Position numbers and translations under genes: made by a program. The notes under the pieces are model-generated. The model saw only the letters and a list, made by a program, of their open reading frames with translations. It searched no databases and was not told where the DNA came from. Of a DNA stretch of 64,000 bases, positions 41,977 to 44,407 are shown piece by piece. This stretch comes from Candidatus Ruthenibacterium merdavium (GTDB lineage: Bacteria > Bacillota > Clostridia > Oscillospirales > Ruminococcaceae). The stretch spans positions 114,999-178,998 of the forward strand of contig DWWA01000020.1 of NCBI GenBank assembly GCA_019119935.1. Direction: 5' to 3'. Positions within the stretch are counted from its first letter, which is position 1. The number at the start of each line of letters is the position of its first letter.

Positions 41977-42106
41977 TCGTATTTCTCCTTTTTAAGCCGC
42001 GAAAAAGCGGCCGGTGTGTGCTTTGTCTGAGCAAAAGCGGCTCTCATTGCAAAAGAACGCGGCATACATGGGAATGTCCAGTGCATGCCGCCTTTTCCTT
42101 TACCGA

Positions 42107-42928
42107 TTATTGATACTGCTGCGCCAAGGTAAGCGCCATCATTTCCAGCGGAGGATATTGGTTGAGCTCCGGCGTTTTAATCACCGTATCCAGCAGCTGT
42201 CTTACCACCCACGCCGCCTTTTTGTCGCGAATGCCCAAAACGGCCAGCTGACCGGTGGTAATCGCAAGGTCGCCCACACGGTAAGGGTCACCGGAGCGAT
42301 ACAGCTTGTCAAACAGCTCGGCCTGTCCCTGCCAGCGGTCATCCGACAGCGACAGTGTGCGAACCGCCGCACCGTAGTCAAATTCCGGCATAGAGCTGAG
42401 CATCATTTTCAAGTCATATTCATTGTCGGGCAGTGTCTGCAAAGCTGCCAGCTTGTCCATTGCCGCAAGGGTTGAAGCGAACACAGAAGAAAAGCCCAGC
42501 CGCTCGCACACGGTGCTGTAATGGGAATTGCAAAGGCGCAAAAAGCTCCACCAGCGCGTTTCCATGGTGCACGGCACATCGGCTAAAACAGAAAGTTCCG
42601 GCGTCCCTTTTAAAATTCCAAACGGGGTCAATGCGCCCTGTGCCACCAGCGGGGCCACCGACTGAGGCCGCGCTGACAGCAAAATATTTTGCAGCGCACC
42701 GCGCACGACCGGCGCCTGAACTTTTTTTACTCCGTCAATGGCAGCAGCTGCCGCCTTATAAGTATCGCTTTCAATCGCGCAGTTTCTTGCTGCCGCTGCC
42801 ACAAATAACGCCAGCACGCGCGCGGGAGACGCCTTGTAATAATTGGCTGCGTCGGGCATGACACCACGCAGTACGCCTTCCTCCAGCATATATTCTCTTG
42901 ATCGTTCCTGTGTATGTTCCATTTCCAA
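42107..42928 (-). CDS. CCA-adding-enzyme-like protein lacking the nucleotidyltransferase head
   Basis: Body/tail-like segments YYKASPARVLALFVAAAARNCAIESDTYKAAAAAIDGVKKVQAPVVRGALQNILLS and YRVGDLAITTGQLAVLGIRDKKAAWVVRQLLDTVIKTPELNQ; no GG-DxD motif. Confidence 0.65.
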   Translation of the reverse strand: MEMEHTQERSREYMLEEGVLRGVMPDAANYYKASPARVLALFVAAAARNCAIESDTYKAAAAAIDGVKKVQAPVVRGALQNILLSARPQSVAPLVAQGALTPFGILKGTPELSVLADVPCTMETRWWSFLRLCNSHYSTVCERLGFSSVFASTLAAMDKLAALQTLPDNEYDLKMMLSSMPEFDYGAAVRTLSLSDDRWQGQAELFDKLYRSGDPYRVGDLAITTGQLAVLGIRDKKAAWVVRQLLDTVIKTPELNQYPPLEMMALTLAQQYQ

Positions 42929-43036
42929 GTACGCCCCTTTTCCAGGTTTCCTTTCTATTATACCAAAAAAAATGAGAATAGTGTTTATTTTTTTGAAATT
43001 TTTTTATATAATATTTTCTAAAGAGGTGAACGTGAT

Positions 43037-44407
43037 ATGAATGGATTCAACAGCAACCTGTTAAACGGCAAAACAAAACTTCATTTCATCGGCATCGGCG
43101 GGAGCGGTATGTTTCCGCTGGTTGAAATTCTGCATGCGGTAGGCTACGAAATCACCGGCTCTGACATGGGCGAAGGCGATATCCTCGACCGCGAGCGTGC
43201 AATGGGCATTCCGGCATCCCACGGCCATCGCGCCGAAAATGTACACGGCACGGAGCTTGTGGTTTACAGCGCGGCCATCCCTTCGGATAATCCCGAATTG
43301 GCAGAGGCCGAGCGCCTTGGCATTCCCGCCGTGGAGCGCAGTGTGCTTTTGGGCTATGTTGCCAACACTTATCCCCACCCCATCTGCATTGCAGGCACAC
43401 ACGGAAAAACAACGACAACCGCAATGACTGCTCAAATTATGATCAGCGCAGGTACAGATGCATCTGCAATCATCGGCGGCAAGCTGCCCTTGATCGATGC
43501 GTACGGCCGTTATGGCGCCGGGCGCGAAATTGTGGTGGAAGCGTGTGAGTACCACAACACCTTCCTGCATTTGGTTCCGTATGTTTCCGTCATTCTGAAC
43601 GTAGATGCTGACCATCTTGAATTTTTCGGCTCTATGGACAATTTAAAGCAGTCCTTCCGCCGCTTTGCGCTTTTAACCGAGCACGCCATTGTCGCCAATC
43701 TTGACGATGCGAACACCCGCGAAGTTTTAAAGAGCGTTGACCGAAATGTGATTACGTTCGGCATTGACACGCCCGCCGATTACCACGCCGTTCATATTGA
43801 GGAATACCGCCCGTCCTTTTTCGCATTTGACATTGTGGAAAAAGGCGTTCCTGCCGCACATATCCGGCTCGCCGTTCCGGGCCGTCATAATGTCTATAAT
43901 GCACTCGCCGCTTACGCATGTGCCGCCATGTTCGGCTGCACTTCGGAGCAGTGCAAAAGCGGCTTAGAGGCATTCCGCGGCGCCGGGCGCCGGTTTGAGT
44001 TCTTGGGCGAAGTCAACGGCGTTACGATTGCCGACGATTACGCTCACCATCCCGCAGAATTGGAAGCCACACTTACCAGCGCGGCAAAAATGGATTACCG
44101 CAAAGTGTGGGCAGTGTTCCAGCCCTTCACCTATTCCCGCACACAGATGCTTTTAGACGATTTTGCGCGCGTGCTTTCGATTGCGGACCATGTGGTTCTC
44201 ACCGAAATTATGGGCAGCCGCGAAAAAGCCGAAGATTACAATATTCGCACGGAAGATTTGGCCGCAAAAATCCCCGGCAGCGTCTGCTTCTCAACCTTTG
44301 AAGAAGTCACCGATTACGTCATGAAGAACGCACAGCCCGGCGATCTTGTTATCACACTGGGGTGCGGCGATATTTACAAAGCCGCCAAAATGATGTGCCG
44401 CAGCTGA
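43037..44407 (+). CDS. murC: UDP-N-acetylmuramate--L-alanine ligase
   Basis: 456 aa; FIGIGGSGMFPLVEIL; GTHGKTTTTAM; DDYAHHPAELEATL. Confidence 0.96.
   Translation: MNGFNSNLLNGKTKLHFIGIGGSGMFPLVEILHAVGYEITGSDMGEGDILDRERAMGIPASHGHRAENVHGTELVVYSAAIPSDNPELAEAERLGIPAVERSVLLGYVANTYPHPICIAGTHGKTTTTAMTAQIMISAGTDASAIIGGKLPLIDAYGRYGAGREIVVEACEYHNTFLHLVPYVSVILNVDADHLEFFGSMDNLKQSFRRFALLTEHAIVANLDDANTREVLKSVDRNVITFGIDTPADYHAVHIEEYRPSFFAFDIVEKGVPAAHIRLAVPGRHNVYNALAAYACAAMFGCTSEQCKSGLEAFRGAGRRFEFLGEVNGVTIADDYAHHPAELEATLTSAAKMDYRKVWAVFQPFTYSRTQMLLDDFARVLSIADHVVLTEIMGSREKAEDYNIRTEDLAAKIPGSVCFSTFEEVTDYVMKNAQPGDLVITLGCGDIYKAAKMMCRS

Follow-up and report, generated by a model that had tools for sequence, protein, structure and literature searches.

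The gene that lies divergent from murC in the window (the whole 64,000-nucleotide stretch of Candidatus Ruthenibacterium merdavium DNA that was analysed) raises the question of why a bacterium should keep the rear part of an enzyme after its catalytic part has gone. CCA-adding enzymes have, to our knowledge, been described as ubiquitous, and as essential wherever any tRNA gene is without an encoded CCA. Functional class II members carry a PolyA_pol head with the catalytic carboxylates of the GG..RD and DxD motifs, and the EDxxR sequence of the neck (motif D) serves in base selection. An earlier note, made from the sequence alone, had described the product of this gene as a class II enzyme without its head, and had suggested that it may be an RNA- or tRNA-binding regulator that has lost catalysis. 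Here the descent of the gene, the residues that it has lost and kept, the selection acting on it and the functions that it might retain are considered in turn.

The gene and its locus

The open frame on the minus strand (Table 1) was confirmed, and encodes 273 amino acids from a TTG at 42928 or 271 from an in-frame ATG at 42922; the latter aligns with the ATG of the orthologue in genome G214 and is as good a start as the TTG. The stretch around the predicted -10 element (TATAATAG) is common to the window, G143 and G214 by direct comparison; a sigma-70 consensus scan, which also demands a -35 hexamer, reported no site in this promoter region. Only 108 bp separate the TTG from the start of murC and these contain the gene's promoter, such that there is too little room for a head in the spacer or in another frame, as the earlier note had also concluded. 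The headless or full-length gene is divergent from murC in every genome whose neighbourhood was examined, with two exceptions: the stretch retrieved from G033 yielded no murC, and the contig of G046 is short. On its other side the neighbourhood is variable whilst the pairing with murC is fixed: in the window just 130 bp (41977-42106) lie between the gene and one for an HI0933-like oxidoreductase, and in G143 (L136:4327-7458) about 3 kb separate the headless gene from the best match to that oxidoreductase.

Table 1. Features of the headless gene and its surroundings (positions in the window)
Feature	Position	Strand	Basis
Headless CCA-adding-enzyme body gene	42107..42928	-	ORF; homology to full-length CCA enzymes; start comparison
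Tail, ~residues 214-273	42110..42289	-	residue conservation, direct comparison
Body, ~residues 86-213; P88, P119, R125-W126-W127 and L173-K174 retained	42290..42673	-	alignments
Neck, ~residues 27-85, borders approximate	42674..42850	-	alignments, residue conservation
Remnant of the final head strand, residues 13-24 (YMLEEGVLRGVM region)	42857..42892	-	alignments; model
Ribosome-binding-site-like AAAAGGGG	42934..42941	-	sequence; matched to AAGGAG in G214 by alignment
TATAAT, -10-like element of the gene's own promoter (predicted)	42957..42962	-	direct comparison
murC, divergent neighbour marking the locus whether the gene is headless or full-length	43037..44407	+	neighbourhood comparison

Homology and fold

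Scans of Pfam, NCBIfam and PDB with the single 273-residue sequence returned nothing significant, only noise, and absence from such scans therefore proves nothing. Relatives were sought instead in 149 genomes of the host family, where phmmer aligned the protein with the C-terminal two thirds of CCA enzymes of ~400 amino acids (E 1e-33 to 1e-9). These full-length proteins are class II CCA enzymes, because their profile matches 1MIV at E 2e-85, and comparison of the headless with the full-length profile using hhalign gave a probability of 100 and an E-value of 9e-53 over 254 columns, with residues 15-271 of the query placed on 164-421 of the template. An AlphaFold2 model of the headless protein, built from six sequences, reached a mean pLDDT of 91.2 and a pTM of 0.83; when it was searched with Foldseek the top 43 PDB matches were all CCA-adding or poly(A) polymerases. 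The best of these, 6q52 and 1miv, had a probability of 1.00 and TM-scores by query of 0.54-0.58, and scores in this moderate range (0.5-0.6 by query) are expected of a flexible multi-domain protein. The Pfam PolyA_pol head was not matched in the window protein, and neither the open frame nor the 108-bp spacer contains one. The scanned full-length proteins match PolyA_pol_RNAbd (PF12627) at 26-42 bits, the headless ones not at all. The lack of a conserved HD, which the earlier note had remarked on, is beside the point, as the close full-length relatives tested have the head and PolyA_pol_RNAbd as their only Pfam domains and are themselves without an HD domain. The protein is thus almost certainly a headless class II CCA-adding enzyme descended from the murC-divergent form and, going by its sequence, it cannot catalyse by the known class II mechanism.

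Residues lost and retained

All that is left of the head is the sequence LEEGVLRG, which matches LEAGILRCVG at the head/neck border of the full enzymes and is modelled as two short strands (E13-16 and E19-22). The body region is all helical in the model. Motif D reads ASPAR in the window protein (residues 33-37); its glutamate is present in two and its aspartate in four of ten headless proteins, compared with ten of ten full enzymes for both. Replaced neck residues of the headless protein are R30, E33, D34, R40, R43, R74 and E78. In the tail PY....LA, G232, L245, V249, PxxN and L261 persist, whilst G235 and G239 of GxxGxxxG, a motif local to the full-length family, are gone: G232 is found in 10/10 headless proteins, G235 in 1/10 and G239 in 2/10, the latter two being missing in G328 and G057 as well. 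Invariably kept (10/10) in the headless set are L39, P88, P119, R125, W126, W127, L173, K174, P215 and G232, together with L245, V249, P253, N256 and L261. The yardstick for loss was the set of columns invariant in six full enzymes, with four further full enzymes held out. Of these columns, the fraction retained in the neck was 0.85 in the held-out enzymes and 0.41 in the headless proteins, and in the body and tail it was 0.99 and 0.82, respectively; within the headless proteins the difference between neck and body/tail is significant (p 0.0005). Most headless proteins have a net charge of about zero or below.

Solved structures of class II enzymes place the nucleobase-reading residues in the neck, whilst the acceptor and T-arm of tRNA are recognised by body and tail (PMC3925840). 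Read against these roles, the losses indicate that the nucleotide-reading surface of the headless proteins is gone, and that the surface which reads tRNA has probably been weakened whilst the scaffold persists; a contact of the lost tail glycines with tRNA is presumed from what the tail domain is known to do.

Origin and spread of head loss

A full-length CCA enzyme of ~400 amino acids occurs in the host family and order, and within the family it is divergent from murC. Related genera carry it at that locus, making the headless gene its positional orthologue, and the head was therefore lost from this very gene. In an order-wide sample every match outside the host family has an open frame of 373-455 amino acids and no headless form was seen among those matches; with the full-length form widespread in the other families of the order, the headless form is the derived one. 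Headless orthologues occur in about six genera of the one family, namely that of the window, g9, g19, g46, g57 and, in g75, the single species G328. The cut point lies near the same place in most, whilst the proteins of G057 and G328 begin later, within or after the neck. The earlier note had considered that the gene might be a simple truncation: a truncation it is, since other genera have the head intact beside murC, but it is old, selected, shared by several genera and not broken. In G046 (L009:1159-2274, plus strand) N-terminal tandem repeats (APAPMDDAPVLTAQTAQKA) have been added to the headless body in place of the head.

The gene of G328 (L114:1342-2070, plus strand) encodes a headless body of 242 amino acids divergent from murC, where its congeners G167 and G075 have a head. 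No PF01743 match was found in this genome, which is 94% complete. Its murC has the closest match in G167 (79%), and the head loss of G328 was probably independent of that in the main headless group. Body trees joined G328 with the main group in none of 200 bootstrap replicates, yet an AU test does not reject a single headless clade that includes it (p 0.10-0.12), and repeated loss of the head, on two or three occasions, is for these reasons likely but unproven.

Dispensability of CCA addition

A full-length cca elsewhere in the genome, for which the earlier note had proposed a check, was not found. Searches with PF01743 detected no head in the window's own genome (G000, 97% complete), G143 (97%) or G214 (93%), and a head profile built from the family found nothing in G000 and G143 and only a chance-level match in G214; the same profile reached 208-210 bits in G354 and G082, which served as controls. 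These searches reach heads of the PF01743 or family type, highly divergent or MNT-type nucleotidyltransferases being beyond them. PF12627 gave only chance-level matches in the own genome. Other headless genomes (G031, G354, G313, g9, G207 and G057) encode a separate, complete CCA enzyme on a different contig. The second enzymes that were examined group apart in the tree and have a neck, body and tail of their own, and a Pfam scan of one of them showed an HD domain. Where the full-length enzyme sits at the murC locus it is the only CCA enzyme in the genomes examined. Six other genomes of 96-99% completeness (G044, G061, G068, G088, G090 and G126) are without any PF01743 head, and the four of them that were checked (G044, G061, G090 and G126) are also missing the body gene. 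In the host family CCA-adding enzymes seem to have been lost repeatedly, also from genomes of about 2 Mb.

Every tRNA gene that scored well in the own assembly (37 distinct) encodes CCA, and so does a truncated copy of tRNA-Ala; the assembly contains neither tRNA-Glu nor tRNA-Ile, which are hence outside this count. Two degenerate tRNA-like stretches of this genome encode no CCA, one at G000:C52:32645-32713 (31 bits, with mispairs) and one at L063:1684-1757 (26 bits, below the Rfam threshold), and both are probably relics. Encoded CCA was considered as a correlate of headlessness and set aside, as it is found across the sampled genomes without difference. RNase Z was looked for as a possible indication that 3' processing had been abandoned altogether, as in the Mollicutes; its model gave weak metallo-hydrolase matches whether a genome was headless or full, and strong ones in G082 alone. 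As the tRNA genes encode CCA, its addition is needed at most for repair, and together with the lack of a detectable head this makes catalysis dispensable for tRNA synthesis. In E. coli CCA addition is likewise not essential and serves repair (PMC10673834), and complete loss of the enzyme has a precedent in the Mollicutes (PMC4014445).

Selection on the headless body

Between G000 and G143 the body has a dN of 0.048 and a dS of 1.08 (dN/dS about 0.04), and murC a dN of 0.061 and a dS of 1.87; among four g9 genomes the dN/dS of the body is about 0.09-0.26. The frame is open in all complete headless copies. These intact frames and the low dN/dS of the close pairs speak against a cca pseudogene. 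Over long distances within the genus the headless body retains 34-35% identity compared with 75% for murC, and the bodies of full-length enzymes likewise diverge fast. The headless body is very probably a selected pseudoenzyme. The loss of catalysis proposed in the earlier note stands (the head is absent, EDxxR has degenerated), and the protein persists nonetheless. Purifying selection in about six genera suggests that the body has a function independent of the head and, with the rear half kept under strong selection and no catalytic half found in the genome, the leftover probably does some other, non-CCA job.

What the body may do

The account that we favour on balance, if by a modest degree of belief, is that the head was deleted, CCA addition being dispensable, and that the body was kept as a non-catalytic binding or scaffold protein. 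A 5' deletion took away the catalytic head except for its last strand, leaving neck, body and tail as a free helical protein of ~270 amino acids. CCA addition is not required for tRNA biogenesis, as the well-scored tRNA genes of the assembly all encode CCA; other headless genomes possess a second complete CCA enzyme and, within the completeness of the assemblies, the window's lineage has none. Selection would then have retained the body for a role without the head, most likely one with a protein partner. A scaffold for protein is itself a tentative proposal, to which the loss of nucleotide-reading and probable RNA-contact residues from a conserved fold core points in preference to tRNA binding. 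The second function might, perhaps, already have resided in the body of the full enzyme and been independent of CCA, which would have allowed the head to be lost repeatedly at murC; conceivably it is then the only function remaining in bacteria without a CCA-adding enzyme, and the proteins a new family of pseudoenzymes. Against the favoured account, divergence faster than that of murC also fits relaxed constraint, and the absence of the body gene from G044, G061, G090 and G126 means that it is not generally needed.

Residual tRNA binding would rank next after a scaffold with a protein partner, ahead of a decaying relic or one half of a split enzyme. A body and tail that still clamped the acceptor arm and elbow of tRNA, as a chaperone, 3'-end protector or translation regulator, would explain why the body alone was worth retaining; these parts recognise the acceptor and T-arm helices in solved enzymes (PMC3925840), and the fold and some basic residues (R125 and K174, with R37 in most) are kept. 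We nevertheless consider this, and with it the regulator of the earlier note, rather unlikely, given the missing EDxxR, neck arginines (R30, R40, R43 and R74) and tail glycines (G235 and G239, absent from G328 and G057 too), the unmatched PolyA_pol_RNAbd and a net charge that is near zero or negative in most. That the body is simply decaying after the deletion of a dispensable head is less probable again: it would accord with the outpacing of murC over long distances, with a motif D that degenerates differently lineage by lineage and with the several cca-less genomes that have no body, but frames intact in about six genera, a dN/dS of 0.04 between G000 and G143 at high synonymous change, core residues conserved in 10/10 headless proteins and a conserved TATAAT and ribosome-binding site all speak for constraint. 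Least credible, and very improbable, is a division of labour in which a separate head or nucleotidyltransferase works with the body in trans on CCA repair, or in which the body modulates the second CCA enzyme. Most headless genomes do have such an enzyme on another contig, but that enzyme is complete and brings a neck, body and tail of its own, the neck residues that face the head are generally lost in the headless set, and no head was found in the nearest genomes (G000, G143 and G214).

Comparison with known systems

Gut bacteria of ordinary genome size thus appear to live without a detectable CCA enzyme whilst its non-catalytic part is under selection, and the headless gene makes testable an own function of body and tail in all CCA-adding enzymes. 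Calls of cca presence or absence in gut genomes can mislead, because the headless gene escapes Pfam altogether and the conserved locus does not stand for a conserved activity. No paper on headless CCA enzymes was found in the literature searched, which was poor in subscription journals. The closest relatives are the full-length family members at the same murC-divergent locus (L010, L011 and L012) and, in homologous neck, body and tail and in modelled fold, the class II enzymes of Geobacillus stearothermophilus (1MIV) and Planococcus halocryophilus (6Q52); unlike class II enzymes, the headless protein is without the catalytic head, EDxxR and the tail GxxGxxxG. In the Mollicutes all tRNA genes encode CCA and the CCAase gene has been described as lost (PMC4014445), which resembles the present case in that the enzyme became dispensable and the catalytic gene was lost; here, however, the non-catalytic two thirds have been kept under selection, and in genomes of ordinary size (2.2-2.3 Mb). 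The split CC-adding and A-adding enzymes of Aquifex (PMC3925840) and S. pombe (PMC7014341) are likewise class II descendants whose activity has been shared out or changed, but both of those partners keep their heads, whereas here there is one headless protein, whose nearest genomes have no detected head.
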